A stretch of DNA of 64,000 nt. It comes from Ianthella basta. Taxonomy: Eukaryota > Porifera > Demospongiae > Verongiida > Ianthellidae. Shown piece by piece: positions 1 to 33,350 of this stretch. Below the pieces are notes generated by a model. That model made no database searches and was not told where the DNA came from. It saw only the letters and a list, made by a program, of their open reading frames with translations. The number at the start of each line of letters is the position of its first letter. Within the stretch, counting starts at the first letter, position 1. The stretch spans positions 12,767,430 to 12,831,429 of the forward strand of contig OZ025869.1 in NCBI GenBank assembly GCA_964019415.1, given 5' to 3'. Position numbers and translations under genes: made by a program.

Positions 1-40
1 CTTGCCTCATCTTGCAATGTCTTGCCTCATCTTGCAATAT

Positions 41-60
41 CTTGCTTTATCTTTCTACAT
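41..60 (+). repeat. Module marker cttgctttat + ctttctacat, first of many
   Basis: This 20-bp pair, usually followed by cttgcctcat, cttactaaat and a cttgtt unit, marks a recurring module. Starts I placed include 41, 421, 761, 971, 3361, 8125, 8758, 12069, 12908, 13811 and 14151, their copy-2 equivalents at +16,233, and 33587, 35467 and 36864. Where neighbouring copies are intact the spacing is 340-380 bp (41 to 421, 421 to 761, 13811 to 14151), which gives the medium-scale repeat length. Confidence 0.8.
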
Positions 61-1210
61 CTTGCCTCATCTTACTAAATCTTGTTATACCTTGCTACAT
101 CTTGCCTCATCTTGCTTCATCTTGCTACATCTTGCCTCATCTTGTAATGTCTTGCCTCATCTTGCCTAATCTTGCAATATCTTGCCTCGTCTTGCAATAT
201 CTTGCCTCATCTTGTAATGTCTTACCTCATCTTGCTACATCTTGCCTCATCTTGCAATATCCTGCCTCATCTTGCTATTTCTTGCTTCATCTTGCAATAT
301 CCTGCCTCATCATGCAATATCTATTCTAATCTTGCAATATCTTGCCTCATCTTGCAATATCTTGCCTCATCTTGCAATGTCTTACCTCATCTTGCTACAT
401 CTTGCCTCATCTTGCAATATCTTGCTTTATCTTTCTACATCTTGCCTCATCTTACTAAATCTTGTTATATCTTGCTACATCTTGCCTCATCTTGCTTCAT
501 CTTGCTACATCTTGCCTCATCTTGTAATGCCTTGCCTCATCTTGCCTAAACTTGCACTATCTTGCCTCATCTTACAATATCTTGCCTCATCTTGTAATAT
601 CTTGCCTCATCTTGCTATATCTTGCCTCATCTTGCAATATCCTGCCTCAACTTGCTATTTCTTGCCTCATCTTGCAATATCTCGCCTCATCTTACAATAT
701 CTTGCATCATCTTGCAATGTCTTACCTCATCTTGCTACATCTTGCCTCATCTTGCAATATCTTGCTTTATCTTTCTACATCTTGCCTCATCTTACTAAAT
801 CTTGTTTCATCTTGCTACATCTTGCCTCATCTTGCTACATCTTGCCTCATCTTGTAATGTCTTGCCTCATCTTGCCTAATCTTGCAATATCTTGCCTCGT
901 CTTGCTTCATCTTGCCTCATCTTGTAATGTCTTGCCTAATCTTGCTACATCTTGCCTCATCTTGCAATATCTTGCTTTATCTTTCTACATCTTGTCTCAT
1001 CTTACTAAATCTTGTTTCATCTTGCTACATCTTGCCTCATCTTGCTACATCTTGCCTCATCTTGTAAAGTCTTGCCTCATCTTGCCTAATCTTGCAATAT
1101 CTTGCCTCGTCTTGCAATATCTTGCCTCATCTTGTAATGTCTTACCTCATCTTGCTACATCTTGCCTCATCTTGCCTCAACTTGCTACATCTTGCCTAAT
1201 CTTGCAATGT

Positions 1211-1223
1211 CTTATTACCTTAT
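1211..1223 (+). repeat. 13-bp slipped unit, first of about 27
   Basis: A decamer cttacctcat is expanded to 13 bp (cttattacctcat; here its last part reads cttat), which shifts the 10-bp register by three. It usually follows cttgcaatgt and precedes ctcgctacat, so it marks one inherited module. Other starts: 2404, 7762, 8375, 9437, 14400, 14863; the copy-2 equivalents 17444, 18637, 23995, 24608, 25670, 30633, 31096; then 36141, 37634, 41506, 42579, 43222, 44575, 47928, 50000, 51321, 55938, 56441, 59695, and a degenerate form at 61298. Confidence 0.9.
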
Positions 1224-1563
1224 CTCGCTACATCTTGCCTCATCTCGCTACATCTTGCCTCATCTTGCTACATCTTGCCTCATCTTGCCACATCTGGCCT
1301 CATCTTCTTACATCTTGCCTCATCTTGCTATATCTTGCTTCATCTTGCTACATCTTGCCTCGTCTTGCTATATCTTGCCTCATCTTCTTACATCTTGCCT
1401 CATCTTGCTATTTCTTGCCTCATCTGGCTATGTCCTTCCTCATCTTGCTATTTCTTGCCTCATTCTGCCATATCTTGCCTCATCATGCAATATCTTGCCT
1501 AATCTTGCCATATCTTGCCTCGTCTTGCAATATCTTGCCTCATCTTGCAATGTCTTGCCTCAT

Positions 1564-1730
1564 CTTGCCAAATCTTGCAATATCTTGCCTCATCTTGCGT
1601 TATCTTGCTTCAGCTTCCTATATCTTGCCTCATCTTGCCTCATCTTGCAATATCTTGCGACATCTTACACTATCTTGCCTCATCTTACTACATCTTGCTT
1701 CATCTTGCTGTTAATTGCCTCATCTTGCTA
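1564..1730 (+). repeat. Module starting cttgccaaat, first of many
   Basis: An ordered string of variants: cttgccaaat, a cttgcgttat or cttgcattat unit, a cttcctatat unit, cttgcgacat, cttacactat, cttactacat, then cttgcttcat and a cttgctgtat-type unit. The same order recurs from 4021, 4975, 9920, 15216, 34087, 37907, 38127, 40126, 41879, 42922, 51554, 56858, 61571 and 61791, and in copy 2 at +16,233. The entry at 15216 and the one at 56858 share the private variant cttgcggcat. A shortened relative that lacks the gacat/acactat part starts at 14733 and 56251. Confidence 0.8.
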
Positions 1731-2640
1731 CATCTTGCCTCGTCTTGCAATATCTTGCCTAATCTTGCAATATCTTGCCTCATCTTGCAATATCTTGCCT
1801 CATCTTGCTATTTCTTGCTTCATCTTGCAATATCTTGCCTCATCATGCAATATCTTGCCTAATCTTGCAATCTCTTGCCTCATCTTGCAATATCTTGCCT
1901 CATCTTGCAATGTCTTACCTCATCTTGCTACATCTTGCCTCATCTTGCAATATCTTGCCTAATCTTGCTATTTCATGCTTCATCTTGCAATATCTTGCTT
2001 CATCGTGCTACATCTTGCCTCATCTTACTAAATCTTGTTTCATCTTGCTACATCTTGCCTCATCTTGCTTCATCTTGCTACATCTTGCCTCATCTTGTAA
2101 TGTCTTGCCTCATCTTGCCTCATCTTGCAATATCTTTCCTCGTCTTGCAATATCTAGCCTCATCTTGTAATGTCCTGCCTCATCTTGCCTCATCTTGCAA
2201 TATCTTGCCTCATTTTGCTATTTCTTGCCTCATCTTGCTATTTCTTGTCTCATCTTTCAATGTCTTACCTCATCTCGCTACATCTTGCCTCATCTTGCAA
2301 TATCTTGCCTCATCTTGCTATTTCTTGCTTCATCTTGCAATACCTAGCAACATCTTGCTAAATCTTGCCTCATCTTGCTACATCTTGCCTCATCTTGCAA
2401 TGCCTTATTACCTCATCTCGCTACATCTTGCCTCATCTTGCTCCTTCTTGCCTCATCTTGCTACATCTTGCTTCATCTTGCTATTTCTTGCCTCATCTTG
2501 CTATTTCTTGCCTCATCTTGCTATATTTTGCCTCATCTTGCTACATCTTGCCTCGTCCTGCAATATCTTGCCTCATCTTCTTACATCTTGCCTCATCTTG
2601 CTATTTCTTGCGTCATCTTGCTATTTCTTGCCTCATCTTG

Positions 2641-2655
2641 CTGTTTAAATTTCTT
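2641..2655 (+). other. Irregular unit with TTTAAATTT (also at 18874)
   Basis: The regular decamers are broken by ctgtttaaatttcttgc, an off-register join between two cttgctattt-type units. I see it only here and at the matching place in copy 2. It is a useful landmark for aligning the 16-kb copies and carries no sign of function. Confidence 0.75.
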
Positions 2656-3352
2656 GCTTCATCTTGCAATATCTTGCCTCATCATGCAATATCTTGTCTC
2701 ATCTTGCAATATCTTGCCTCATCTTGCAATATCTTGCCTCATCTTGCAATGTCTTGCCTCATCTTGCAATATCTTGCTATATCTTTCTACGTCTTGCCTC
2801 ATCTTACTAAATCTTGTTATATCTTGCTACATCTTGCCTCATCTTGCTTCATCTTGCTACATCTTGCCTCATCTTGTAATGTCTTGCCTCATCTTGCCTA
2901 ATCTTGCAATATCTTGCCTCGTCTTGCAATATCTTGCCTCATCTTGTAATGTCTTGCCTCATCTTGCTACATCTTGCTTCATCTTGCAATATCTTGCCTC
3001 ATCTTGCTATTTCTTGCTTTATCTTGCAATATCCTGACTCATCATGCAATATCTATCCTAATCCTTCAATATCTTGCCTCATCTTGCAATATCTTGCCTC
3101 ATCTTGCAATATCTTGCCTCATCTTGTAATGCCTTGCCTCATCTTGCCTAAACTTGCACTATCTTGCCTCATCTTACAATATCTTGCCTCATCTTGTAAT
3201 ATCTTGCCTCACCTTGCTACATCTTGCCTCATCTTGCAATATCCTGCCTCAACTTGCTATTTCTTTCCTCATCTTGCAATATCTCGCCTCATCTTACAAT
3301 ATCTTGCCTCATCTTGCAATGTCTTACCTCATCTTGCTACATCTTGCCTCAT

Positions 3353-3360
3353 CTTGATAT
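3353..3360 (+). other. Shortened 8-bp unit cttgatat
   Basis: A cttgcaatat unit has lost two bases, which shifts the 10-bp register just before a cttgctttat/ctttctacat marker. The same form is in copy 2 at 19586. Most other units in the region keep exactly 10 bp. Confidence 0.7.
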
Positions 3361-4871
3361 CTTGCTTTATCTTTCTACATCTTGCCTCATCTTACTAAAT
3401 CTTGTTTCATCTTGCTACATCTTGCCTCATCTTGCTACATCTTGCCTCATCTTGTAATGTCTTGCCTCATCTTGCCTAATCTTGCAATATCTTGCCTCGT
3501 CTTGCTTCATCTTGCCTCATCTTGTAATGTCTTGCCTCATCTTGCTACATCTTGCCTCATCTTGCCTCATCTTGCCTCATCTTGCTACATCTTGCCTCAT
3601 CTCGCTACATCTTGCCTCATCTCGCTACATCTTGCCTCATCTTGCTACATCTTGCCTCATCTTGCTACATCTGGCCTCATCTTGCTATATCTTGCCTCAT
3701 CTTGCTATATCTTGCCTCATCTTGCTACATTTTACCTCGTCTTGCAATATCTTGCCTCATCTTCTTACATCTTGCCTCATCTTGCTATATCTTGCCTCAT
3801 CTTGCTACATTTTACCTCGTCTTGCAATATCTTGCCTCATCTTCTTACATCTTGCCTCATCTTGCTATTTCTTACCTCATTTTGCTATTTCTTGCCTCAT
3901 CTTGCTATTTCTTGCCTCATTCTGCAATATCTTGCCTCATCATGCAATATCTTGCCTAATCTTGCAATATCTTGACTCGTCTTGCAATATCTTGCCTCAT
4001 CTTGCAATGTCTTGCAATATCTTGCCAAATGTTGCAATATCTTGCCTCATCATGCGTTATCTTGCTTCATCTTTCTATATCTTGCCTCATCTTGCCTCAT
4101 CTTGCAATATCTTGCGACATCTTACACTATCTTGCCTCATCTTACTACATCTTGCTTCATCTTGCTGTATCTTGGCTCATCTTGCTACATCTTGCCTCGT
4201 CTTGCAATATCTTGCCTCATCTTGCAATATCTTGCCTCATCTTGCAATATCTTGCCTCATCTTGCTATTTCTTGCTTCATCATGCACTATCTTGCCTCAT
4301 CATGCAATATCTTGCCTAATCTTGCAATATCTTGCCTCATCTTGCAATATCTTGCCTCATCTTGCAATGTCTTATATACCTCATCTTGCTACATCTTGCC
4401 TCATCTTACAATATCTTGTTTTATCTTGCTACATCTTGCCTCATCTTGCTTCATCTTACTACATTTTGCCTCATCTTGTAATGTCTTGCCTCATCTTGCC
4501 TAATCTTGCAATAACTTGCCTCGTCTTGCACTATCTGGCCTCATCTTGCTATATCTTGCCTCATCTTGCTACATCTTGCCTCGTCTTGCAATATCTTGCC
4601 TCATCTTCTTACATCTTGCTTCATCTTGCTATTTCTTGCTATTTCTTGCCTCATCTTGCTATTTCTTGCCTCATCTTGCTGCATCTTGCCTCATCTTGCT
4701 ACATCTGGCCTCATCTTGCTATATCTTGCCTCATCTTGCTATATCTTGCCTCATCTTGCTACATTTTACCTCGTCTTGCATTATCTTGCCTCATCTTCTT
4801 ACATCTTGCCTCATCTTGCTATTTCTTACCTCATCTTGCTATTTCTTGCCTCATCTTGCTATTTCTTGCCT

Positions 4872-4872
4872 T
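4872..4872 (+). other. Substitution between the 16-kb copies (T here, C at 21105)
   Basis: Copy 1 reads gccttgttctgc and copy 2 reads gcctcgttctgc at the matching place. It is one of only two differences I noticed between the copies. The C form makes a CpG, so a C-to-T change is a natural explanation if the difference is real. Confidence 0.85.
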
Positions 4873-5529
4873 GTTCTGCAATATCTTGCCTCATCATGCA
4901 ATATCTTGCCTAATCTTGCAATATCTTGCCTCGTCTTGCAATATCTTGCCTCATCTTGCAATGTCTTGCAATATCTTGCCAAATGTTGCAATATCTTGCC
5001 TCATCTTGCGTTATCTTGCTTCATCTTTCTATATCTTGCCTCATCTTGCCTCATCTTGCAATATCTTGCGACATCTTACACTATCTTGCCTAATCTTACT
5101 ACATCTTGCTTCATCTTGCTGTATCCTGCCTCATCTTGCTACATCTTGCCTCGTCTTGCAATATCTTGCCTAATCTTGCAATATCTTGCCTCATCTTGCA
5201 ATATCTTGCCTCATCTTGCTATTTCTTTCTTCATCTTGCACTATCTTGCCTCATCATGCAATATCTTGCCTAATCTTGCAATATCTTGCCTCATCTTGCA
5301 ATATCTTGCCTCATCTTGCAATGTCTTACCTCATCTTGCTACATCTTGCCTCATCTTACAATATCTTGTTTTATCTTGCTACATCTTGCCTCATCTTGCT
5401 TCATCTTACTACATTTTGCCTCATCTTGTAATGCCTTGCCTCATCTTGCCTAATCTTGCAATAACTTGCCTCGTCTTGCACTATCTGACCTCATCTTGCT
5501 ATATCTTGCCTCATCTTGCTACATCTTGC

Positions 5530-5539
5530 CTCGAGCTCG
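5530..5539 (+). other. CTCGAGCTCG insertion, unique to the 16-kb unit
   Basis: A cttgcctcgt unit is expanded to cttgcctcgagctcgt, a short duplication around ctcg with an added ag. It creates overlapping CTCGAG and GAGCTC hexamers. The only other place I see it is copy 2, at 21763-21772. It looks like a small replication error preserved by the large duplication. Confidence 0.8.
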
Positions 5540-8500
5540 TCTTGCAATATCTTGCCTCATCTTCTTACATCTTGCTTCATCTTGCTATTTCTTGCCTCAT
5601 CTTGCTATTTCTTGCCTCATCTTGCTATGTTTTGTCTCCTCTTGCTACATCTTGCCTCGTCCTGCAATATCTTGCCTCATCTTTTTACATCTTGCCTCAT
5701 CTTGCTATTTCTTGCCTCGTCTTGCTATTTCTTGCCTCATCTTGCTATTTCTTGCTTCATCTTGCAATATCTTGCCTCATCATGCAATATCTTGCCTCAT
5801 CATGCAATATCTTGCCTAATCTTGCAATATCTTGCCTCATCTTGCAATATCTTGCCTCATCTTGCTACATCTTGACTCATCTTGCAATATCTTACCTCAT
5901 CTTGCTACATCTTGCCTCATCTTGCAATATCTTGTTTTATCTTGCTACATCTTGCCTCATCTTACTTCATCTTGCTACATCTTGCCTCATCTTGTAATGT
6001 CTTGCCTCATCTTGCCTCATCTTGCAATATCTTGCCTCGTCTTGCAATATCTTGCCTCATCTTGCAATGTCTTGCCTCATCTTGCTACATCTTGCCTCGT
6101 CTTGCAATATCTTGCCTAATCTTGCAATATCTTGCCTCATCTTGCAATATCTTGCCTCATCTTGCTATTTCTTGCTTCATCTTGCACTATCTTGCCTCAT
6201 CATGCAATATCTTGCCTAATCTTGCATTATCTTGCCTCATCTTGCAATATCTTGCCTCATCTTGCAATGTCTTACCTCATCTTGCTACATCTTGCCTCAT
6301 CTTACAATATCTTGTTTTATCTTGCTACATCTTGCCTCAACTTGCATCATTTTACTACATTTTGCCTCATCTTGTAATGTCTTGCCACATCTTGCCTAAA
6401 CGTGCAATAACTTGCCTCGTCTTGCAATATCTGGCCTCATCTTGCTATATCTTGCCTCATCTTGCTACATCTTGCCTCGTCTTGCAATATCTTGCCTCAT
6501 CTTCTTACATCTTGCTTCATCTTGCTATTTCTTGCCTCATCTTGCTATGTTTTGCCTCCTCTTGCTACATCTTGCCTCGTCCTGCAATATCTAGCCTCAT
6601 CTTCTTACATCTTGCCTCATCTTGCTATTTCTTGCCTCATCTTGCTATTTCTTACCTAATCTTGCTATTTCTTACTTCATCTTGCAATATCTTGCCTCAT
6701 CATGCAATATCTTGCCTAATCTTGCAATATCTTGCCTCATCTTGCAATATCTTGCCTCATCTTGCTACATCTTGACTCATCTTGCAATATCTTACCTCAT
6801 CTTGCTACATCTTGCCTCATCTTGCAATATCTTGTTTTATCTTGCTACATCTTGCCTCATCTTGCTTCATCTTGCTACATCTTGCCTCATCTTGTAATGT
6901 CTTGCCTCATCTTGCCTAATCTTGCAATATCTTGCCTCGTCTTGCAATATCTTGCCTCATCTTGTAATGTCTTGCCTCATCTTGCTACATCTTGTCCTCA
7001 TCTTGCAATATCTTGCCTCATCTTGCTCTTTCTTGCTTCATCTTGCAATATCTTGCCTCATCATGCAATATCTTGCCTAATCTTGCAATATCTTGCCTCA
7101 TCTTGCTATTTCTTGCCTCATCTTGCAATGTCTTACCTCATCTTGCTTCATCTTGCCTCATCTTGCAATATCTTGCTTCATCTTTCTACATCTTGCCTCA
7201 TCTTACTAAATCTTGTTTTATCTTGGTACATCTTGCCTCATCTTGCTTCATCTTGCTACATCTTGCCTCATCTTGTAATGTCTTGCCTCATCTTGCCTAA
7301 ACTTGCACTATCTTGCCTCGTCTTGCAATATCTTGCCTCATCTTGTAATATCTTGCCTCATCTTGCTACATCTTGCATCGTCTTGCAATATCCTCCCTCA
7401 TCTTGCTATTTCTTGCCTAATCTTGCAATATCTTGCCTCATCTTGCAATACCTTGCCTCATCTTGTAATGTCTTACCTCATCTTGCTACATTTTGCCTCA
7501 TCTTGCAATATCTTGCTTTATCTTCCTACATCTAGCCTCATCTTACTAAATCTTGTTTCATCTTGCTACATCTAGCCTCATCTTGCTTCATCTTGCTACA
7601 TCTTGCCTCATCTTGTAATGTCTTGCCTCATCTTGCCTAATCTTGCAATATCTTGCCTCGTCTTGCAATATCTTGCCTCATCCTGTAATGTCTTGCCTCA
7701 TCTTGCTACATCTTGCCTCATCTTGCCTCATCTTGCTACATCTTGCCTCATCTTGCAATGTCTTATTACCTCATCTTACTAAATCTTTTTTCATCTTGCT
7801 ACATCTTGCCTCATCTTGCTTCATCTTGCTACATCTTGCCTCATCTTATACTGTCTTGCCTCATCTTGCCTGATCTTGCAATATCTTGCCTCGTCTTGCA
7901 ATATCTTGCCTCATCTTGTAATATCTTGCCTCATCTTGCTACATCTTGCTTCATCTTGCAATATCTTGCCTCATCTTGCTATTTCTTGCTTCATCTTACA
8001 ATATCTTGCATCATCATGCAATATCTTGCCTAATCTTGCAATATCTTGCCTCATCTTGCAACATCTTGCCTCATCTTGCAATGTCTTACCTCATCTTGCT
8101 ACATCTTGCCTCATCTTGCAATATCTTGCTTTATCTTTCTACATCTTGCCTCATCTTACTAAATCTTGTTTCATCTTGCTACATCTTGCCTCATCTTGCT
8201 TCATCTTGCTACATCTTGCCTCATCGTGTAATGTCATGCCTCATCTAGCCTAATCTTGCAATATCTTGCCTCGTCTTGCAATATCTTGCCTCATCCTGTA
8301 ATGTCTTGCCTCATCTTGCTACATCTTGCCTCATCTTGCCTCATCTTGCTACATCTTGCCTCATCTTGCAATGTCTTATTACCTCATCTCGCTACATCTT
8401 GCCTCATCTCGCTACATCTTGCCTCATCGTGCTACATCTTGCCTCATCTTGCTACATCTGGCCTCATCTTGCTATATCTTGCCTCATCTAGCTATTTCTT

Positions 8501-8850
8501 GCCTCATCTTGCTACATCTTGCCTCGTCTTGCAATATATTGCCTCATCTTCTTACATCTTGCCTCATCTTGCAATATCTTGCCTCATCTTGCTATTTCTT
8601 GCTTCATCTTGCACTATCTTGCCTCATCATGCAATATCTTGCCTAATCTTGCAATATCTTGCCTAATCTTGCAATATCTTGCCTCATCTTACAATATCTT
8701 GCCTCATCTTGCAATGTCTTACCTCATCTTGCTACATCTTGCCTCATCTTGCAATATCTTGCTTTATCTTTCTACATCTTGCCTCATCTTACTAAATCAT
8801 GTTATATCTTGCTACATCTTGCCTCATCTTGCTTCATCTTCTACATCTTG

Positions 8851-9170
8851 CCTCATCTTGTAATGTCATGCCTCATCTTGCTACATCTTGCATTGTCTTG
8901 CAATATCCTGCCTCTTGTTGCTATTTCTTGCTTCATTTTGCAATATCTTGCCTCATCTTACAATATCTTGCCTCATCTTGCAATGTCTTACCTCATCTTG
9001 CTACATCTTGCCTCATCCTGTAATATCTTGCCTCATCTTGCTACATCTTGCATTGTCTTGCAATATCCTGCCTCATCTTGCTATTTCTTGCTTCATTTTG
9101 CAATATCTTGCCTCATCTTACAATATCTTGCCTCATCTTGCAATGTCTTACCTCATCTTGCTACATCTTC
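8851..9170 (+). repeat. 160-bp local tandem duplication
   Basis: Two adjacent copies of about 160 bp (8851-9010 and 9011-9170) share the rare decamer string cttgcattgt, cttgcaatat, cctgcctc, and then cttcattttg. The first copy has cctcttgttg where the second has cctcatcttg. The related stretch at about 50.93 kb has a single copy, so the duplication arose after those two regions separated. It recurs in the second 16-kb copy at 25084-25403. Confidence 0.8.
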
Positions 9171-9339
9171 CCTCATCTTGCAATATCTTGCTTTATCTTT
9201 CTACTTCTTGCCTCATCTTACTAAATCTTGTTTCATCTTGCTACATCTTGCCTCATCTTGCTTCATCTTGCTAAATCTCGCCTCATCTTGTAATGTCTTG
9301 CCTGATCTTGCTTAATCTTGCAATATCTTGCCTCGTCTT

Positions 9340-9860
9340 GCAATATCTTGCCTCATCTTCTAATGTCTTGCCTCATCTTTCTGCATCTTGCCTCATCTTT
9401 CCTCATCTTGCTACATCTTGCCTCATCTTGCAATGTCTTATTACCTCATCTTACAACATCTTGCCTCATCTCGCTACATCTTGCCTCATCTCGCTACATC
9501 TTGCCTCATCTTGCTACATCTGGCCTCATCTGGCTATTTCTTGTCTCATCTTGCTATTTCTTGCCTCATTCTGCAATATCTTGCCTCATCATGCAATATC
9601 TTCCCTAATCTTGCAATATCTTGCCTCGTCTTGCAATATCTTGCCTCATCTTCTAATGACTTGCCTCATCTTGCTGCATCTTGCCTCATCTTGCCTCATC
9701 TCGCTACATCTTGCCTCATCTCACTACATCTTGCCTCATCTCGCTACATCTTGCCTCATCTTGCTACATCTGGCCTCATCTGGCTATTTCTTGTCTCATC
9801 TTGCTATTTCTTGCCTCATTCTGCAATATCTTGCCTCATCATGCAATATCTTTCCTAATC
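9340..9860 (+). repeat. 250-293-bp local tandem duplication
   Basis: The string catctggctatttc occurs at two places 250 bp apart (about 9527 and 9777), and the flanking units match before and after. Upstream the offset is 293 bp, because the second copy lacks the 13-bp slipped unit and three decamers. The related region at 51.2-51.5 kb has only one copy. The whole arrangement is repeated at about 25573-26093 in the second 16-kb copy. Confidence 0.75.
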
Positions 9861-10532
9861 TTGCAATATCTTGCCTCGTCTTGCAATATCTTGCCTCATC
9901 TTGCAATGTCTTGCCTCATCTTGCCAAATCTTGCAATATCTTGCCTCATCTTGCATTATCTTGCTTCATCTTCCTATATCTTGCCTCATCTTTCCTCATC
10001 TTGCAGTATCTTGCGACATCTTACACTATCTTGCCTCATCTTACTACATCTTGCTTCATCTTGCTGTATCTTGCCTCATCTTGCTACATCTTGCCTCGTC
10101 TTGCAATATCTTGCCTAATCTTGCAATATCTTGCCTCATCTTGCAATATCTTGCCTAATCTTGCAATATCTTGCCTCATCTTGCAATATCTTGCCTCATC
10201 ATGCAATATCATGCCTAATCTCTTGCCTCAATCTTGCCTCATCTTGCAATGTCTTACCTCATCTTGCTACATCTTGCCTCATCTTGCAATATCTTGCTTA
10301 ATCTTCCTATTTCTTGCTTCATCTTGCAATATCTTGCTTCATCGTGCTACATCTTGCCTCATCTTACTAAATCTTGCTTCATCTTGCTCCATCTTGCCTC
10401 ATCTGACTTCATCTTGCTGCATCTTGCCTCATCTTGCTATTTCTTGCCTCATCTTGCTATTTCTTGCCTCATCTTGCAGTATCTTGCCTCTTCTTGCTAT
10501 ATCTTGTCTCATCTTGATTCATCTTGCTATAT

Positions 10533-10640
10533 CGTTGCTCATCTTGCTACATCTTCCTCATCTTACTAAATCTTGCTTCATCTAACTACATCTTGACTCA
10601 TCTTGATTCATCTTGCTCCATCTTGCCTTATCTTGTAACG
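10533..10640 (+). repeat. Long-period landmark A
   Basis: The landmark starts at the irregular unit cgttgctcat, passes through cttactaaat, ctaactacat, cttgattcat and cttgctccat, and ends at cttgtaacg. Landmark A carries a private 2-base loss (ctacatcttcctcat) that is shared only with A' and A''. It is 108 bp long. No landmark precedes it in the first 10.5 kb. Confidence 0.9.
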
Positions 10641-13600
10641 TCTTGCCTCATCTTGCCTAATCTTGCAATATCTTGCCTCATCTTGCAATATCTTGCCTCA
10701 TCTTGCAATGTCTGCCTCATCTTGCCTAATCTTACAATATCTTGCCTCATCTTGCACTATCTTGCTTCATCTTGCTATATCTTACGACATCTTGCACTAT
10801 CTTGCCGTATCTTACTACATCTTGCTTTATTTTACTATATCTTGGCTCATCTTGCAATATCTCGCTACATCTTACTTCATCTTGTTATATCTTGCCTCAT
10901 CTTGCTTCATCTTGCTATATCTTGCCTCATCTTGCTATATCTTGTCTCATCTAGCAATATCTTGCCTCATCTTGCAATATCTTGTTACATCTTACTTCTT
11001 CTTGCTATATCTTGCCTTATCTTGCCTCATCTTACAATATCTTGCCTCATCTTGCTTCATCTTGCTTCATCTTGCTATATCATGCCTCATCTTGTTATAT
11101 CTTGCTTCATCTTGCAATATCTTGCCTCATCTTGCAACATCTTGCCCCATCTTGCTACATCTTGCCTCATCTTGTAATGTCTTGCCTCATCTTGCTACAT
11201 CTTGCCTCATCTTGCCTCATCTTGCTACATCTTGCCTCATCTTGTAATGTCTTGCCTCATCTTGCCTAATCTTGCAATATCTTGCCTCGTCTTGCAATAT
11301 CTTGCCTCATCTTGTAATATCTTGATTCATCTTGCTACATCTTGCCTCATCTTGCCTCATCTCGCTACATCTTGCCTCATCTTACTTAATCTTGTTTCAT
11401 CTTGCTACATCTTGCCTCATCTTGCTTCATCTTGCTACATCTTGCCTCATCTTGTAATGTCTTGCCTCATCTTGCCTAATCTTGCAATATCTTGCCTCGT
11501 CTTGCAATATCTTGCCTCATCTTGCTACATTTGCCTCATCTTGCTACATCTTGCCTCATCTTGCAATATCTTGCCTCATTTTGCTATTTCTTGCTTCATC
11601 TTGCAATACCTTGCCTCATCTTGCACTATCTTGCCTCATTTTGATATTTCTTGCTTCATCTTGCAATATCTTGCCTCATCATGCAATACCTGGCCTTATC
11701 TTGCAATATTGTGCCTCCTCTTGCTACATCTTGCCTCATCTTGCAATATCTTGCCTCGTCTTGCAATATCTTGCCTCATCTTGCAATGTCTTACCTCATC
11801 TTGCTACATCTTGCCTCATCTTGCAATATCTTGCCTCATCTTACTAAATCTTGCTTTATCTTGCTATATCTTGCCTCATCATCAATATCTTGCCTAATCT
11901 TGCAATATCTTGCCTCATCTTGCATTATCTTGCCTCATCTTGAATTGTCTTACCTCATCTTGCTACATCTTGCCTCATCTTGCAATATCTTGCCTCGTCT
12001 TGCATTATCTTGCCTCATCTTGCAATGTCTTACCTCATCTTGCTACATCTTGCCTCATCTTGCAATATCTTGCTTTATCTTTCTACATCTTGCCTCATCT
12101 TACTAAATCTTGTTTTATCTTGCTACATCTCTCCTCATCTTGCCTAATCTTGCAATATCTTGCCTCGTCTTGCAATATCTTGCCTCATCTTGTAATATCT
12201 TGCCTCATCTTGCTACATCTTGCCTCATCTTGCAATATCCTGCCTCATCTTGCTATTTCTTGCCTCATCTTACAATATCTTGCCTCATCTTACAATATCT
12301 TGCCTCATCTTGCAATGTCTTAGCTCATCTTGCTACATCTTGCCTCATCTTGCAATATTTTGCTTTAACTTTCTACATCTAGTCTCATCTTACTAAATCT
12401 TGTTTCATCTTGCTACATCTTGCCTCATCTTGTAATGTCTTACCTCATCTTGCCTAATCTTGCAATATCTTGCCTCGTCTTGCAATATCTTGCCTCATCT
12501 TGCTACATCTTGCCTCATCTTGCAATGTCTTGCCTCAACTTGTTATTTCTTGCTTCATCTTGCAATATCTTGCCTCATCATGCAATATCTTGCCTAATCT
12601 TGCAATATCTTGCCTCGTCTTGCAATATCTTGCCTCATCTTGCAATGTCTTGCCTCGTCTTGCAATATCTTGCCTCATCTTGCAATGTCTTACCTCATCT
12701 TGCTATATCTTGCCTCATCTTGCTACATCTTGCCTCATCTTGCAATGTCTTACCTCATCTTACTAAATCTTGCTTCATCTTGCAATATCTTGCCTCATCA
12801 TCAATATCTTGCCTAATCTTGCAATATCTTGCCTCATCTTGCTACATCTTGCCTCATCTTGCAATGTCTTACCTCATCTTGCTACATCTTGCCTCATCTT
12901 GCAATATCTTGCTTTATCTTTCTACATCTTGCCTCATCTTACTAAATCTTGTTTTATCTTGCTACAACTTGCCTCATCTTGTAATGTCTTGCCTCATCTT
13001 GCCTAATCTTGCAATATCTTGCCTCGTCTTGCAATATCTTGCCTCATCGTGTAATATCTTGCCTCATCTTGCTACATCTTGCCTCATCTTACAATATCCT
13101 GCCTCATCTTGCTTATTCTTGCCTCATCTTACAGTATCTTGCCTCATCTTACAATGTCTTGCCTCATCTTGCAATGTCTTAGCTCATCTTGCTACATCTT
13201 GCCTCATCTTGCAATATTTTGCCTCATCTTTCTACATCTTGCTTCATCTTACTAAATTTTGTTTCATCTTGCTACATCTTGCCTCATCTTGTAATGTCTG
13301 CCTCATCTTGCCTAATCTTGCAATATCTTGCCTCGTCTTGCAAAATCTTGCCTCATCTTGTAATATCTTGCCTCATCTTGCTACATACATCTTGCCTCAT
13401 CTTGCATTATCTTTCCTCATCTTGCTATTTCTTGGTTCATCTTGCAATATCTTACCTCATCATGCAATATCTTGCCTTATCTTGCAATATCTTGCCTTGT
13501 CATGCAATATCTTGCCTCATCTTGCAATGTCTTACCTCATCTTGCTACATCTTGCCTCATCTTGCAACATCTTGCCTCGTCTTGCAATATCTTACCTCAT

Positions 13601-15251: not shown

Positions 15252-15252
15252 T
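15252..15252 (+). other. Substitution between the 16-kb copies (T here, A at 31485)
   Basis: Copy 1 has the decamer cttgcattat and copy 2 has cttgcaatat at the same place. The related stretch near 56.88 kb has cttgcattat, which suggests that copy 2 carries the changed base. Confidence 0.85.
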
Positions 15253-15904
15253 TATCTTGTTTCATCTTCCTATATCTTGCCTCATCTTGCCTCATCTTGC
15301 AATATCTTGCGGCATCTTACGCTATCTTGCCTCATCTTACTACATCTTGCCTCGTCTCACAATATCTTGCCTCATCTTACTACATCTTGCCTCATCTTGC
15401 TGTATCTTGCTTCATCTTGCTACATCTTGCCTCATCTTGCTGTATCTTGCCTCATCTTGCTACATCTTGCCTCGTCTTGCAATATCTTGCCTCATCTTGC
15501 AATATCTTGCCTCATCTTGCAATATCTTGCCTCATCATGCAATATCTTGCCTAATCTTGCAATCTCTTGCCTCATCTTGCAATCTCTTGCCTCATCTTGC
15601 AATGTCTTACCTCATCTTGCTACATCTTGCCTCATCTTGCAATATCTTGCTTAATCTTGCTATTTCTTGCTTCATCTTGCAATATCTTGCTTCATCGTGC
15701 TACATCTTGCCTCATCTTACTAAATCTTGTTTCATCTTGCTACAACTAGCCTCATCTGACTTCATCTTGCTGCATCTTGCCTCATCTTGCTATTACTTGC
15801 CTCATCTTGCTATTTCTTGCCTCATCTTCTATTTCTTGCCTCATCTTGCAGTATCTTGCCTCATCTTGTTATATCTTGTCTCATCTTGAGTCATTTTGCT
15901 ATAT

Positions 15905-16013
15905 CGTTGCTCATCTTGCTACATCTTGACTCATCTTACTAAATCTTGCTTCATCTAACTACATCTTGCGTCATCTTGATTCATCTTGCTCCATCTTGCC
16001 TTATCTTGTAACG
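15905..16013 (+). repeat. Long-period landmark B
   Basis: This lies 5,372 bp downstream of landmark A. The preceding unit is cttgagtcat, and a ctacaactagcctcat string lies about 160 bp upstream; both are shared with B' and with B'' at 57468 but not with A, C or D. It is 109 bp long. Confidence 0.9.
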
Positions 16014-22200: not shown

Positions 22201-25200
22201 CATCTTGCTACATCTTGCCTCATCTTGTAATGTCTTGCCTCATCTTGCCTCATCTTGCAATATCTTGCCTCGTCTTGCAATATCTTGCCTCATCTTGCAA
22301 TGTCTTGCCTCATCTTGCTACATCTTGCCTCGTCTTGCAATATCTTGCCTAATCTTGCAATATCTTGCCTCATCTTGCAATATCTTGCCTCATCTTGCTA
22401 TTTCTTGCTTCATCTTGCACTATCTTGCCTCATCATGCAATATCTTGCCTAATCTTGCATTATCTTGCCTCATCTTGCAATATCTTGCCTCATCTTGCAA
22501 TGTCTTACCTCATCTTGCTACATCTTGCCTCATCTTACAATATCTTGTTTTATCTTGCTACATCTTGCCTCAACTTGCATCATTTTACTACATTTTGCCT
22601 CATCTTGTAATGTCTTGCCACATCTTGCCTAAACGTGCAATAACTTGCCTCGTCTTGCAATATCTGGCCTCATCTTGCTATATCTTGCCTCATCTTGCTA
22701 CATCTTGCCTCGTCTTGCAATATCTTGCCTCATCTTCTTACATCTTGCTTCATCTTGCTATTTCTTGCCTCATCTTGCTATGTTTTGCCTCCTCTTGCTA
22801 CATCTTGCCTCGTCCTGCAATATCTAGCCTCATCTTCTTACATCTTGCCTCATCTTGCTATTTCTTGCCTCATCTTGCTATTTCTTACCTAATCTTGCTA
22901 TTTCTTACTTCATCTTGCAATATCTTGCCTCATCATGCAATATCTTGCCTAATCTTGCAATATCTTGCCTCATCTTGCAATATCTTGCCTCATCTTGCTA
23001 CATCTTGACTCATCTTGCAATATCTTACCTCATCTTGCTACATCTTGCCTCATCTTGCAATATCTTGTTTTATCTTGCTACATCTTGCCTCATCTTGCTT
23101 CATCTTGCTACATCTTGCCTCATCTTGTAATGTCTTGCCTCATCTTGCCTAATCTTGCAATATCTTGCCTCGTCTTGCAATATCTTGCCTCATCTTGTAA
23201 TGTCTTGCCTCATCTTGCTACATCTTGTCCTCATCTTGCAATATCTTGCCTCATCTTGCTCTTTCTTGCTTCATCTTGCAATATCTTGCCTCATCATGCA
23301 ATATCTTGCCTAATCTTGCAATATCTTGCCTCATCTTGCTATTTCTTGCCTCATCTTGCAATGTCTTACCTCATCTTGCTTCATCTTGCCTCATCTTGCA
23401 ATATCTTGCTTCATCTTTCTACATCTTGCCTCATCTTACTAAATCTTGTTTTATCTTGGTACATCTTGCCTCATCTTGCTTCATCTTGCTACATCTTGCC
23501 TCATCTTGTAATGTCTTGCCTCATCTTGCCTAAACTTGCACTATCTTGCCTCGTCTTGCAATATCTTGCCTCATCTTGTAATATCTTGCCTCATCTTGCT
23601 ACATCTTGCATCGTCTTGCAATATCCTCCCTCATCTTGCTATTTCTTGCCTAATCTTGCAATATCTTGCCTCATCTTGCAATACCTTGCCTCATCTTGTA
23701 ATGTCTTACCTCATCTTGCTACATTTTGCCTCATCTTGCAATATCTTGCTTTATCTTCCTACATCTAGCCTCATCTTACTAAATCTTGTTTCATCTTGCT
23801 ACATCTAGCCTCATCTTGCTTCATCTTGCTACATCTTGCCTCATCTTGTAATGTCTTGCCTCATCTTGCCTAATCTTGCAATATCTTGCCTCGTCTTGCA
23901 ATATCTTGCCTCATCCTGTAATGTCTTGCCTCATCTTGCTACATCTTGCCTCATCTTGCCTCATCTTGCTACATCTTGCCTCATCTTGCAATGTCTTATT
24001 ACCTCATCTTACTAAATCTTTTTTCATCTTGCTACATCTTGCCTCATCTTGCTTCATCTTGCTACATCTTGCCTCATCTTATACTGTCTTGCCTCATCTT
24101 GCCTGATCTTGCAATATCTTGCCTCGTCTTGCAATATCTTGCCTCATCTTGTAATATCTTGCCTCATCTTGCTACATCTTGCTTCATCTTGCAATATCTT
24201 GCCTCATCTTGCTATTTCTTGCTTCATCTTACAATATCTTGCATCATCATGCAATATCTTGCCTAATCTTGCAATATCTTGCCTCATCTTGCAACATCTT
24301 GCCTCATCTTGCAATGTCTTACCTCATCTTGCTACATCTTGCCTCATCTTGCAATATCTTGCTTTATCTTTCTACATCTTGCCTCATCTTACTAAATCTT
24401 GTTTCATCTTGCTACATCTTGCCTCATCTTGCTTCATCTTGCTACATCTTGCCTCATCGTGTAATGTCATGCCTCATCTAGCCTAATCTTGCAATATCTT
24501 GCCTCGTCTTGCAATATCTTGCCTCATCCTGTAATGTCTTGCCTCATCTTGCTACATCTTGCCTCATCTTGCCTCATCTTGCTACATCTTGCCTCATCTT
24601 GCAATGTCTTATTACCTCATCTCGCTACATCTTGCCTCATCTCGCTACATCTTGCCTCATCGTGCTACATCTTGCCTCATCTTGCTACATCTGGCCTCAT
24701 CTTGCTATATCTTGCCTCATCTAGCTATTTCTTGCCTCATCTTGCTACATCTTGCCTCGTCTTGCAATATATTGCCTCATCTTCTTACATCTTGCCTCAT
24801 CTTGCAATATCTTGCCTCATCTTGCTATTTCTTGCTTCATCTTGCACTATCTTGCCTCATCATGCAATATCTTGCCTAATCTTGCAATATCTTGCCTAAT
24901 CTTGCAATATCTTGCCTCATCTTACAATATCTTGCCTCATCTTGCAATGTCTTACCTCATCTTGCTACATCTTGCCTCATCTTGCAATATCTTGCTTTAT
25001 CTTTCTACATCTTGCCTCATCTTACTAAATCATGTTATATCTTGCTACATCTTGCCTCATCTTGCTTCATCTTCTACATCTTGCCTCATCTTGTAATGTC
25101 ATGCCTCATCTTGCTACATCTTGCATTGTCTTGCAATATCCTGCCTCTTGTTGCTATTTCTTGCTTCATTTTGCAATATCTTGCCTCATCTTACAATATC

Positions 25201-26765
25201 TTGCCTCATCTTGCAATGTCTTACCTCATCTTGCTACATCTTGCCTCATCCTGTAATATCTTGCCTCATCTTGCTACATCTTGCATTGTCTTGCAATATC
25301 CTGCCTCATCTTGCTATTTCTTGCTTCATTTTGCAATATCTTGCCTCATCTTACAATATCTTGCCTCATCTTGCAATGTCTTACCTCATCTTGCTACATC
25401 TTCCCTCATCTTGCAATATCTTGCTTTATCTTTCTACTTCTTGCCTCATCTTACTAAATCTTGTTTCATCTTGCTACATCTTGCCTCATCTTGCTTCATC
25501 TTGCTAAATCTCGCCTCATCTTGTAATGTCTTGCCTGATCTTGCTTAATCTTGCAATATCTTGCCTCGTCTTGCAATATCTTGCCTCATCTTCTAATGTC
25601 TTGCCTCATCTTTCTGCATCTTGCCTCATCTTTCCTCATCTTGCTACATCTTGCCTCATCTTGCAATGTCTTATTACCTCATCTTACAACATCTTGCCTC
25701 ATCTCGCTACATCTTGCCTCATCTCGCTACATCTTGCCTCATCTTGCTACATCTGGCCTCATCTGGCTATTTCTTGTCTCATCTTGCTATTTCTTGCCTC
25801 ATTCTGCAATATCTTGCCTCATCATGCAATATCTTCCCTAATCTTGCAATATCTTGCCTCGTCTTGCAATATCTTGCCTCATCTTCTAATGACTTGCCTC
25901 ATCTTGCTGCATCTTGCCTCATCTTGCCTCATCTCGCTACATCTTGCCTCATCTCACTACATCTTGCCTCATCTCGCTACATCTTGCCTCATCTTGCTAC
26001 ATCTGGCCTCATCTGGCTATTTCTTGTCTCATCTTGCTATTTCTTGCCTCATTCTGCAATATCTTGCCTCATCATGCAATATCTTTCCTAATCTTGCAAT
26101 ATCTTGCCTCGTCTTGCAATATCTTGCCTCATCTTGCAATGTCTTGCCTCATCTTGCCAAATCTTGCAATATCTTGCCTCATCTTGCATTATCTTGCTTC
26201 ATCTTCCTATATCTTGCCTCATCTTTCCTCATCTTGCAGTATCTTGCGACATCTTACACTATCTTGCCTCATCTTACTACATCTTGCTTCATCTTGCTGT
26301 ATCTTGCCTCATCTTGCTACATCTTGCCTCGTCTTGCAATATCTTGCCTAATCTTGCAATATCTTGCCTCATCTTGCAATATCTTGCCTAATCTTGCAAT
26401 ATCTTGCCTCATCTTGCAATATCTTGCCTCATCATGCAATATCATGCCTAATCTCTTGCCTCAATCTTGCCTCATCTTGCAATGTCTTACCTCATCTTGC
26501 TACATCTTGCCTCATCTTGCAATATCTTGCTTAATCTTCCTATTTCTTGCTTCATCTTGCAATATCTTGCTTCATCGTGCTACATCTTGCCTCATCTTAC
26601 TAAATCTTGCTTCATCTTGCTCCATCTTGCCTCATCTGACTTCATCTTGCTGCATCTTGCCTCATCTTGCTATTTCTTGCCTCATCTTGCTATTTCTTGC
26701 CTCATCTTGCAGTATCTTGCCTCTTCTTGCTATATCTTGTCTCATCTTGATTCATCTTGCTATAT

Positions 26766-26873
26766 CGTTGCTCATCTTGCTACATCTTCCTCATCTTACT
26801 AAATCTTGCTTCATCTAACTACATCTTGACTCATCTTGATTCATCTTGCTCCATCTTGCCTTATCTTGTAACG
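26766..26873 (+). repeat. Long-period landmark A'
   Basis: This is the copy of landmark A in the second 16-kb unit, identical as far as I compared. It lies 10,861 bp after B, an interval that contains the 16233/16234 junction and is about twice the usual spacing. Confidence 0.9.
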
Positions 26874-29800
26874 TCTTGCCTCATCTTGCCTAATCTTGCA
26901 ATATCTTGCCTCATCTTGCAATATCTTGCCTCATCTTGCAATGTCTGCCTCATCTTGCCTAATCTTACAATATCTTGCCTCATCTTGCACTATCTTGCTT
27001 CATCTTGCTATATCTTACGACATCTTGCACTATCTTGCCGTATCTTACTACATCTTGCTTTATTTTACTATATCTTGGCTCATCTTGCAATATCTCGCTA
27101 CATCTTACTTCATCTTGTTATATCTTGCCTCATCTTGCTTCATCTTGCTATATCTTGCCTCATCTTGCTATATCTTGTCTCATCTAGCAATATCTTGCCT
27201 CATCTTGCAATATCTTGTTACATCTTACTTCTTCTTGCTATATCTTGCCTTATCTTGCCTCATCTTACAATATCTTGCCTCATCTTGCTTCATCTTGCTT
27301 CATCTTGCTATATCATGCCTCATCTTGTTATATCTTGCTTCATCTTGCAATATCTTGCCTCATCTTGCAACATCTTGCCCCATCTTGCTACATCTTGCCT
27401 CATCTTGTAATGTCTTGCCTCATCTTGCTACATCTTGCCTCATCTTGCCTCATCTTGCTACATCTTGCCTCATCTTGTAATGTCTTGCCTCATCTTGCCT
27501 AATCTTGCAATATCTTGCCTCGTCTTGCAATATCTTGCCTCATCTTGTAATATCTTGATTCATCTTGCTACATCTTGCCTCATCTTGCCTCATCTCGCTA
27601 CATCTTGCCTCATCTTACTTAATCTTGTTTCATCTTGCTACATCTTGCCTCATCTTGCTTCATCTTGCTACATCTTGCCTCATCTTGTAATGTCTTGCCT
27701 CATCTTGCCTAATCTTGCAATATCTTGCCTCGTCTTGCAATATCTTGCCTCATCTTGCTACATTTGCCTCATCTTGCTACATCTTGCCTCATCTTGCAAT
27801 ATCTTGCCTCATTTTGCTATTTCTTGCTTCATCTTGCAATACCTTGCCTCATCTTGCACTATCTTGCCTCATTTTGATATTTCTTGCTTCATCTTGCAAT
27901 ATCTTGCCTCATCATGCAATACCTGGCCTTATCTTGCAATATTGTGCCTCCTCTTGCTACATCTTGCCTCATCTTGCAATATCTTGCCTCGTCTTGCAAT
28001 ATCTTGCCTCATCTTGCAATGTCTTACCTCATCTTGCTACATCTTGCCTCATCTTGCAATATCTTGCCTCATCTTACTAAATCTTGCTTTATCTTGCTAT
28101 ATCTTGCCTCATCATCAATATCTTGCCTAATCTTGCAATATCTTGCCTCATCTTGCATTATCTTGCCTCATCTTGAATTGTCTTACCTCATCTTGCTACA
28201 TCTTGCCTCATCTTGCAATATCTTGCCTCGTCTTGCATTATCTTGCCTCATCTTGCAATGTCTTACCTCATCTTGCTACATCTTGCCTCATCTTGCAATA
28301 TCTTGCTTTATCTTTCTACATCTTGCCTCATCTTACTAAATCTTGTTTTATCTTGCTACATCTCTCCTCATCTTGCCTAATCTTGCAATATCTTGCCTCG
28401 TCTTGCAATATCTTGCCTCATCTTGTAATATCTTGCCTCATCTTGCTACATCTTGCCTCATCTTGCAATATCCTGCCTCATCTTGCTATTTCTTGCCTCA
28501 TCTTACAATATCTTGCCTCATCTTACAATATCTTGCCTCATCTTGCAATGTCTTAGCTCATCTTGCTACATCTTGCCTCATCTTGCAATATTTTGCTTTA
28601 ACTTTCTACATCTAGTCTCATCTTACTAAATCTTGTTTCATCTTGCTACATCTTGCCTCATCTTGTAATGTCTTACCTCATCTTGCCTAATCTTGCAATA
28701 TCTTGCCTCGTCTTGCAATATCTTGCCTCATCTTGCTACATCTTGCCTCATCTTGCAATGTCTTGCCTCAACTTGTTATTTCTTGCTTCATCTTGCAATA
28801 TCTTGCCTCATCATGCAATATCTTGCCTAATCTTGCAATATCTTGCCTCGTCTTGCAATATCTTGCCTCATCTTGCAATGTCTTGCCTCGTCTTGCAATA
28901 TCTTGCCTCATCTTGCAATGTCTTACCTCATCTTGCTATATCTTGCCTCATCTTGCTACATCTTGCCTCATCTTGCAATGTCTTACCTCATCTTACTAAA
29001 TCTTGCTTCATCTTGCAATATCTTGCCTCATCATCAATATCTTGCCTAATCTTGCAATATCTTGCCTCATCTTGCTACATCTTGCCTCATCTTGCAATGT
29101 CTTACCTCATCTTGCTACATCTTGCCTCATCTTGCAATATCTTGCTTTATCTTTCTACATCTTGCCTCATCTTACTAAATCTTGTTTTATCTTGCTACAA
29201 CTTGCCTCATCTTGTAATGTCTTGCCTCATCTTGCCTAATCTTGCAATATCTTGCCTCGTCTTGCAATATCTTGCCTCATCGTGTAATATCTTGCCTCAT
29301 CTTGCTACATCTTGCCTCATCTTACAATATCCTGCCTCATCTTGCTTATTCTTGCCTCATCTTACAGTATCTTGCCTCATCTTACAATGTCTTGCCTCAT
29401 CTTGCAATGTCTTAGCTCATCTTGCTACATCTTGCCTCATCTTGCAATATTTTGCCTCATCTTTCTACATCTTGCTTCATCTTACTAAATTTTGTTTCAT
29501 CTTGCTACATCTTGCCTCATCTTGTAATGTCTGCCTCATCTTGCCTAATCTTGCAATATCTTGCCTCGTCTTGCAAAATCTTGCCTCATCTTGTAATATC
29601 TTGCCTCATCTTGCTACATACATCTTGCCTCATCTTGCATTATCTTTCCTCATCTTGCTATTTCTTGGTTCATCTTGCAATATCTTACCTCATCATGCAA
29701 TATCTTGCCTTATCTTGCAATATCTTGCCTTGTCATGCAATATCTTGCCTCATCTTGCAATGTCTTACCTCATCTTGCTACATCTTGCCTCATCTTGCAA

Positions 29801-32137
29801 CATCTTGCCTCGTCTTGCAATATCTTACCTCATCTTGCAATGTCTTACCTCATCTTGCTATATCTTGCCTCATCTTGCAATATCTTGCCTCATCTTACTA
29901 AATCTTGCTTCATCTTGCAATATCTTGCCTCATCATGCAATATCTTGCCTAATCTTGCAATATCTTGCCTCATCTTGCTATATCTTGCCTCATCTTGCAA
30001 TGTCTTACCTCATCTTGCTACATCTTGCCTCATCTTGCAATATCTTGCTTTATCTTTCTACATCTTGCCTCATTTTACTAAATCTTGTTATATCTTGCTA
30101 TATCTTGCCTCATCTTGCTTCATCTTGCTACATCTTGCCTCATCTTGTAATGTCTTGCCTCATCTTGCCTTAACTTGCAATATCTTGCCTCGTCTTGCAA
30201 TATCTTGCCTCATCCTGTAATATCTTGCCTCATCTTGCTACATCTTGCCTCATCTTGCAATATCCTGCCTCATCTTGCTCTTTCTTGCCTCATCTTGCAA
30301 TATCTTGCCTCATCTTACAATATCTTGCCTCATCTTGCAATGTCTTACTTCATCTTGCTACATCTTGCCTCATCTTGCAATATCTTGCTTTATCTTTCTA
30401 CATCTTGCCTAATCTTACTAAATCTTGTTATATCTTGCTACATCTTGCCTCATCTTGCTTCATCTTGCTACATCTCGCCTCATCTTGTAATGTCTTCCTC
30501 ATCTTTCCTAATCTTGCAATATCTTGCCTCGTCTTGCAATATCTTGCCTCATCTTGTAATGTCTTGCTTCATCTTGCTACATCTTGCCTCATCTTGCCTC
30601 ATCTTGCTACATCTTGCCTCATCTTGCAATGTCTTATTACCTCATCTCGCTACATCTTGCCTCATCTTGCTACATCTTGCCTCATCTTGCTACATCTTGC
30701 CTCATCTTGCTACATCTTGCCTCAATTTTCTACATCTGGCCTCATCTTGCCATATCTTGCGTCATCTTGCTATATCTTGCCTCATCTTGCGACATCTTGC
30801 CTCGACTTGCAATATCTTGCCTCATCTTCTTACATCTTGCCTCATCTTTCTATTTCTTGCCTCATTCTGCAATAACTTGCCTCATCATGCAATATCTGAC
30901 CTAATCCTGCAATATCTTGCCTCGTCTAGCAATATCTTGCCTCATCTTTCAATGTCTTGCCTCATCTTGCCAAATCTTGCAATATCTTGCCTCATCTTGC
31001 TACATCTTGCTTCATCTTCCTATATCTTGCCTCATCTTGCCACATCTTGCCTCATCTTGTCTCATCTTGCTACATCTTGCCTCATCTTGCAATGTCTTAT
31101 TACCTCATCTCGCTACATCTTGCCTCATCTCGCTACATCTTGCCTCATCTTGCTACATCTTGCCTCATCTTGCTACATCTGGCCTCATCCTGCTATATCT
31201 TGCTTCATCTTGCTATGTCTTGCCTCATCTTGCTATATCTTGCCTCGTCTTGCAATATCTTGCCTCATCTTCTTACATCTTGCCTCATCTTGCTATTTCT
31301 TGCCTCATCTTGCTCTTTCTTGCCTCATCTTGCTATTGCTTGACTTATTCTGCAATATCTTGCCTGATCATGCAATATCTTGCCTAATCTTGCAATATCT
31401 TGCCTCGTCTTCCAATATCTTGCCTCATCTTGCAATGTCTTGCCTCATCTTGCCAAATCTTGCAATATCTTGCCTCATCTTGCAATATCTTGTTTCATCT
31501 TCCTATATCTTGCCTCATCTTGCCTCATCTTGCAATATCTTGCGGCATCTTACGCTATCTTGCCTCATCTTACTACATCTTGCCTCGTCTCACAATATCT
31601 TGCCTCATCTTACTACATCTTGCCTCATCTTGCTGTATCTTGCTTCATCTTGCTACATCTTGCCTCATCTTGCTGTATCTTGCCTCATCTTGCTACATCT
31701 TGCCTCGTCTTGCAATATCTTGCCTCATCTTGCAATATCTTGCCTCATCTTGCAATATCTTGCCTCATCATGCAATATCTTGCCTAATCTTGCAATCTCT
31801 TGCCTCATCTTGCAATCTCTTGCCTCATCTTGCAATGTCTTACCTCATCTTGCTACATCTTGCCTCATCTTGCAATATCTTGCTTAATCTTGCTATTTCT
31901 TGCTTCATCTTGCAATATCTTGCTTCATCGTGCTACATCTTGCCTCATCTTACTAAATCTTGTTTCATCTTGCTACAACTAGCCTCATCTGACTTCATCT
32001 TGCTGCATCTTGCCTCATCTTGCTATTACTTGCCTCATCTTGCTATTTCTTGCCTCATCTTCTATTTCTTGCCTCATCTTGCAGTATCTTGCCTCATCTT
32101 GTTATATCTTGTCTCATCTTGAGTCATTTTGCTATAT

Positions 32138-32246
32138 CGTTGCTCATCTTGCTACATCTTGACTCATCTTACTAAATCTTGCTTCATCTAACTACATCTT
32201 GCGTCATCTTGATTCATCTTGCTCCATCTTGCCTTATCTTGTAACG
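32138..32246 (+). repeat. Long-period landmark B'
   Basis: This is the copy of landmark B in the second 16-kb unit, 5,372 bp after A'. The array downstream continues into a 460-bp duplicated module, whereas after B the same module is cut off at the 16-kb junction. Confidence 0.9.
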
Positions 32247-32430
32247 TCTTGCCTCATCTTGCCTATTCTTGCAATATCTTGCCTCATCTTGCAATATCTT
32301 GCCTCATCTTGCAATGTCTGCCTCATCTTGCCTAATCTTGCAATATCTTGCCTCATCTTGCAATATCTTGTTACATCTTACTTCTTCTTGCTATATCTTG
32401 CCTTATCTTGCCTCATCTTGCAACATCTTG

Positions 32431-33350
32431 CCTCATCTTGCTTCATCTAGCTTCATCTTGCTATATCTTGCCTCATCTCGTTATATCTTGCTTCATCTTG
32501 CAATATCTTGCCTCATCTTGCAACATCTTGCCCCATCTTGATTCATCTTGCCTCATTTTGCAATGTCTTGCCTCATCTTGCTACATCTTGCTTCATCTTG
32601 CTATTTCTTGCCTCATCTTGCTATTTCTAGCCTCATCTTGCTACATCTTGCCTCATCTTACAATATCTTGCCTCATCTTGCTATTTCTTAACTCATCTTT
32701 CTATTTCTTGCCTCATCTTGCAATATCTTGCCTCATCTTCATACATCTTGCCTCATCTTGCAATATCTTGCCTCATCTTGCTACATCTTGCCTCGTGTTG
32801 CTATTTCTTGCCTCATCTTGCTTTTTCTTGCCTCATTATGCAATATATTGCCTAATCTTGCTATTTCTTTCCTCATCTTGCAATATCTTCCCTCATCTTG
32901 CTTCATCTAGCTTCATCTTGCTATATCTTGCCTCATCTCGTTATATCTTGCTTCATCTTGCAATATCTTGCCTCATCTTGCAACATCTTGCCCCATCTTA
33001 ATTCATCTTGCCTCATTTTGCAATGTCTTGCCTCATCTTGCTACATCTTGCCTCATCTTGCTATTTCTTGCCTCATCTTGCTATTTCTAGCCTCATCTTG
33101 CTACATCTTGCCTCATCTTTCAATATCTTGCCTCATCTTGCTATTTCTTAACTCATCTTTCTATTTCTTGCCTCATCTTGCAATATCTTGCCTCATCTTC
33201 ATACATCTTGCCTCATCTTGCAATATCTTGCCTCATCTTGCTACATCTTGCCTCGTCTTGCTATTTCTTGCCTCATCTTGCTATTTCTTGCCTCATTATG
33301 CAATATCTTGCCTAATCTTGCTATTTCTTTCCTCATCTTGCAATATCTTC
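32431..33350 (+). repeat. 460-bp tandem duplication
   Basis: Copies 32431-32890 and 32891-33350 are in register with a constant 460-bp offset. They share rare units such as cttcatctag, ccccatctt, ctatttctta, cttcatacat and cctcattatg. Differences I see include 32540 (G/A), 32592 (T/C), 32660 (A/T) and 32796 (G/C), plus changes in the ctttttcttg and caatatattg units. The homologous stretch at about 57711-58170 has a single copy. The first 48 bases belong to the end of the second 16-kb copy. Confidence 0.88.

Follow-up and report, generated by a model that had tools for sequence, protein, structure and literature searches.

The satellite array

The stretch of DNA analysed here, 64,000 bp in length and called the window throughout, corresponds to C2:12767430-12831429 of the 209-Mb, 96-contig Ianthella basta genome, in which contig C2 measures 15,762,857 bp. 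A single satellite occupies the whole of it:

1..64000, forward strand: satellite array with a 20-bp unit made of two related 10-mers, 79% matches

The 20-bp unit is CTTGCCTCATCTTGCAATAT. Positions are given relative to window position 1 and may be negative. The array spans about -38.3 kb to +132.1 kb; its continuity is broken by two inserts of non-satellite sequence, one at about -23.4 to -20.8 kb and the other at 78.7 to 81.9 kb, and, for a short distance, near -34 kb. All 2484 places at which the unit was found in the 264 kb around the window are in the forward orientation; genome-wide, a search allowing one mismatch returned 4437 forward and 3645 reverse places. Among the matches listed, the satellite also occurs at C1:16.53-16.58 Mb, which is at that contig's end, at C2:0.12-0.14 and 11.24-11.35 Mb, at C7:0.20 Mb and at C12:7.78 Mb, on both strands. 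A second array on C2, of which 40 kb was examined, shares at most 61 bp of exact sequence with the array in the window, suggesting local homogenisation. A run of exactly 5,000 N lies at -67.0 to -62.0 kb and may be an assembly gap.

Open reading frames in the window were rejected as genes, as they are frames through the repeat, and a comparison with 4227 Rfam families gave no match at the gathering score. Within the upstream insert (about -23.5 to -20.9 kb), an open frame of 879 codons matches RVT_1 (E 3e-21). Because this frame opens with satellite codons, the element may be a 5'-truncated non-LTR retroelement. The downstream insert (about 78.6-82.0 kb) carries direct repeats at an offset of 2635, with 2 differences in 761 positions, and a reverse-transcriptase-like open reading frame whose RVT_1 match is weak (E 1.9e-4, below Pfam's cut-off). 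From its C-terminal GIY-YIG-like motif, we take this insert to be a Penelope-like candidate.

A near-identical 16,233-bp tandem duplication

Within the array lie two adjacent copies of one 16,233-bp unit:

1..16233, forward strand: copy 1 of the 16,233-bp unit; its left limit could fall anywhere in -3..13, since 16 bases are shared
16234..32466, forward strand: copy 2 of the 16,233-bp unit; the run as a whole has 16,249 aligned positions, two of which differ
32467..32478, forward strand: 12 further bases, past the end of copy 2, in which the match to the start of the unit persists; the true edge is at or before 32478

Self-comparison of the window, combined with fetched upstream sequence, aligns -3..16245 with 16230..32478 at an offset of 16,233, with two substitutions and no indels. 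Within positions 1-16245 the mismatches fall solely at 4872 (T/C) and 15252 (T/A). The original prediction of an unbroken, constant-offset match between 1-16245 and 16234-32478 with two substitutions therefore had its coordinates right. Upstream sequence adds four matching bases, to -3, and there the match ends; the next differences to the left of position 1 are 5, 15, 18, 23, 24, and 25 bases away. The three longest exact tracts of the array are all pieces of this pair (10,379, 4,875, and 993 bp), and the fourth measures 455 bp. The near-identity of the two copies is far above chance and above the rest of the array.

Two 60-mers specific to the unit gave exact matches in a genome search only at the two copies; the second gave one extra match, with three mismatches, at window position 56139. 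With up to three mismatches allowed, these two 60-mers identified no third copy and no alternative allele in other contigs. A 35-mer across the junction proved not to be specific, with matches at seven places.

The two differences between the copies

4872, forward strand: difference 1; T in copy 1, C in copy 2 (21105)
15252, forward strand: difference 2; T in copy 1, A in copy 2 (31485)

Each difference was compared with the closest places in the surrounding satellite (the 14 best of 264 kb, both copies included, leaving 12 others). At 4872, 10 of the 12 other places listed have C and two have T; the two T-bearing relatives, 15113 and 31346, are mutual copies. Copy 1 looks derived at this site. 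At 15252, T is present in all 12 of the other places listed, and here it is copy 2 that looks derived. One private substitution per copy seems to be the pattern, some of the closest places used for polarity being pairs created by the 16,233-bp duplication itself. The absence of indels between the copies counts weakly against raw sequencing error. Further, since the two copies are indistinguishable over at most 10,379 bp at a time, accurate reads slightly longer than this could separate them, and the assembly need not have had reads of more than 16 kb to resolve them.

By way of illustration, two differences over two 16.2-kb copies correspond to about 6 x 10^-5 differences per site in each copy. 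With the mutation rate given for human centromeres in PMC12240836 (4.94 x 10^-8 per bp per generation), a rate that is the human's and not this organism's, the duplication would be on the order of a thousand generations old.

The left edge

Position 1 lies 12.77 Mb into the 15.76-Mb contig, and the satellite continues about 38 kb upstream. An upstream continuation of the 16,233-bp period is absent from the fetched sequence. The sequence around position 1 has an older relative inside copy 1:

933..3032, forward strand: older tandem relative of -1800..300, the stretch that spans position 1; at an offset of 2732, 2,101 positions contain 44 differences

This relative is unbroken where it aligns across position 1, at 2733, with identities on the two sides of 0.985/0.985 for 200-bp arms, 0.98/0.977 for 300-bp arms, and 0.98/0.916 for 500-bp arms. 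Because a relative of 98% crosses position 1, the left flank and the start of the unit belong together, and the left edge is old sequence. The same relative makes a hidden gapless join at position 1 appear unlikely.

The junction and the right edge

16230..16245, forward strand: junction zone; 16 bases (4 + 12) common to the left edge, the junction, and the right edge, in the 10/20-bp register

The repeat phase is identical at 1, 16234, and 32467, and the sequence contains no N, either at the junction or elsewhere in the array. Over +-60 bp, the partner sites are 0.858 identical at shift 0, the best of all shifts from -45 to +45; the next-best shifts are +20 (0.842) and -20 (0.825), corresponding to the 20-bp register. 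Among 3,000 random pairs in phase, 4.9% are as similar as the partner sites, and a shared run of at least 16 occurs in 11% of 2,031 in-phase pairs. When 60,000 random pairs were drawn in any phase, 252 reached the identity of the junction, 669 had a run of at least 16, and 103 had both. A homology-driven join predicts a match of this kind, whereas arbitrarily abutted read or contig ends would rarely give such agreement. Ungapped agreement between the partners falls beyond 100 bp on the left (0.53 at 200 bp) and stays at about 0.8 to 400 bp on the right. The region 16100-16400 contains no inverted repeats of at least 10 bp that could form a hairpin at the junction.

A long homologous block predating the duplication at its breakpoints, with an older period of about 16.25 kb as seen in one chain, did not hold up. 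In 250-bp steps at this spacing, the 24 steps on the right included one at 0.956 and two at 0.89-0.91, and the 24 on the left reached at most 0.876, against a background 99% point of 0.916 in 1,245 pairs. Neither these steps nor the scan for spanning relatives found a long near-identical block at a breakpoint.

Across the junction, the best relative matching on both sides scores 0.80 with 200-bp arms, 0.797 with 300-bp arms, and 0.738 with 500-bp arms. For comparison, 120 array places were drawn at random, of which 82 remained once draws within the duplicated part or the upstream insert had been removed. Their median with 300-bp arms is 0.912 and the 5% point is 0.807, so the junction, at 0.797, is unusual. 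The right edge at 32467 is spanned at 0.82, 0.817, and 0.738 for the same three arm lengths, hardly above the junction. The end of the unit alone has few close relatives (best 0.865, 0.90, and 0.738), which limits both the junction test and the right-edge test. An old right edge, with novelty confined to the junction, is the simplest reading but has the standing of an interpretation. A right edge that lacks a spanning relative fits a true duplication and a false one alike, and it leaves the odds of the readings discussed below unchanged.

Other tandem events in the array

Windows of 500 bp with at most five differences were found at 28 offsets of at least 100 bp, 16,233 included; three of these (18965, 41663, and 85420) mirror others through the duplication. 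An offset of 4186 gives 13 differences in 2,031 positions at 82.04-84.07 kb, outside the window, and an offset of 783 gives 4 differences in 766. The tract at offset 4186 begins near the right end of the Penelope-like candidate insert. A 455-bp exact match at 64245/65028 lies just outside the window. The original prediction of visible divergence in all other repeat pairs is correct for the long pairs of the window and needs qualifying for shorter tracts, some of which are young, among them the tract at offset 2732 across position 1. The longest older chains extend over 4 to 6 kb at identities of 0.90-0.965 (about 95% at up to 6 kb), identity being counted over matched 200-bp blocks alone, each required to reach at least 86%.

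The array thus shows tandem relatives of differing ages, of which the 16-kb pair is the youngest and the longest. We found nothing in the array of intermediate size or age between this pair and the tracts of about 2 kb at 99.4%. No second many-kilobase near-identical pair was seen in this array, nor in the second C2 array, in whose 40 kb the longest exact repeat is 360 bp.

Origin of the duplication

Unequal crossing over drives satellite arrays in Smith's model, in which in-register misalignment leads to tandem duplication. The locus resembles this model in its in-register tandem duplication and in the presence, within one array, of earlier duplications that differ in age. It differs in having no long near-identical block at the breakpoints, and template switching would leave the same footprint.

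We consider that the 16,233-bp repeat is probably a real, very recent, and ordinary tandem satellite duplication. Its anatomy in the assembly is left flank, S, S, right flank, where S is the 16,233-bp unit, present twice and in register, and the order of divergence is likewise seen in the sequence; its presence in the real chromosome and the recombination route are what we infer. A single misaligned exchange, or a replication template switch, between places 16.2 kb apart would produce this arrangement. The similarity inherent in the satellite (86% over 120 bp, 16 bp perfect), and not long near-identical blocks, would have kept the partners in the 20-bp register, and the duplication would be the most recent visible step in a recurring enlargement of the array. 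The original prediction had offered two origins, a very recent duplication or the double placement of a read at a contig end. The first is favoured by the in-register, gap-free junction, the apparently private substitutions, and the older duplications nearby; the contig-end premise of the second fails for this assembly. Counting against a real duplication are its standing as an outlier in both size and age, a length of about 16 kb that is near that of a read, and a right edge that is not clearly old.

A broader proposal is that a single step can add 16 kb to a diverged 10/20-bp satellite via short in-register homology, here 86% over 120 bp with a perfect core of 16 bp, for example by template switching during replication, with no need for long near-identical blocks. 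We offer this tentatively and regard it as rather doubtful.

The best-surviving alternative, though an unlikely one, is a homotype false duplication, in which two contigs whose ends overlap by roughly the length of a read (left flank plus S, and S plus right flank) were abutted unmerged at 16234. Errors of this type, as described in PMC8081667, are near read length and often at contig boundaries, and the locus is like them in being near-identical, tandem, and possibly read-sized: 16,233 bp is compatible with accurate long reads. According to the same description, however, scaffolding leaves a gap between the copies, and here neither the junction nor the array contains one. A contig boundary is likewise not visible, position 1 being well inside its contig, although a gap-filled or gapless join would be invisible. 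No relative spans the junction above 0.80, which a false join would also give, but arbitrary read ends should meet in random phase, and 103 of the 60,000 random pairs match as well as the junction does. In addition, each copy seems to carry its own private change, unlike the homotype case.

A heterotype duplication, with two haplotypes of one locus placed in tandem and the substitutions being heterozygous sites, is a good deal less probable. The differences are of substitution type, apparently one private to each copy, as alleles might be, but their density (2/16,249, or 0.012%) is below the genome heterozygosities of 0.1-1.6% cited in PMC8081667, and such errors are described there as accompanying high heterozygosity. 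The gap-free, in-register junction also argues against two haplotypes, as does the failure of the two 60-mers to match any other contig exactly.

It is scarcely credible that window position 1 is a contig end where one read was entered twice: this would fit a duplication edge within four bases of that position, but the contig continues 12.77 Mb upstream, the satellite runs on, and the 98% relative spans the site, so that for this assembly such an end is refuted unless a gapless join is hidden exactly there. The coincidence itself is real to within those four bases; the contig end that had been proposed as its cause does not account for it, and it may reflect the choice of window. Position 1 falls within an edge zone of 17 positions (-3..13); for a random 64-kb window, the corresponding figure is about 17 in 64,000.

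Comparison with known satellite changes and significance

For a real, recent duplication there is a precedent in human alpha-satellite DNA: PMC12240836 reports changes that arose de novo within a single transmission and measure 680 to 12,228 bp, so one-step changes of this order are real in satellites. As described there, the alpha-satellite structural variants share with the present locus a kilobase-scale gain, a kept register, and near-perfect copies. In contrast to them, the sponge repeat is a diverged 10/20-bp satellite whose partner sites share 86% over 120 bp. Its 16.2 kb also exceeds the reported alpha-satellite range and is known from an assembly, not from an observed transmission.

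The kind of event is already known whether the duplication is real or false, and its general interest is modest. If false, it would caution against taking the lengths of satellites in assemblies at face value, since they can be inflated. If real, as we think probable, it would be a fresh footprint of satellite array growth in this sponge, caught before later changes blur it and with the similarity at its breakpoints still directly readable.
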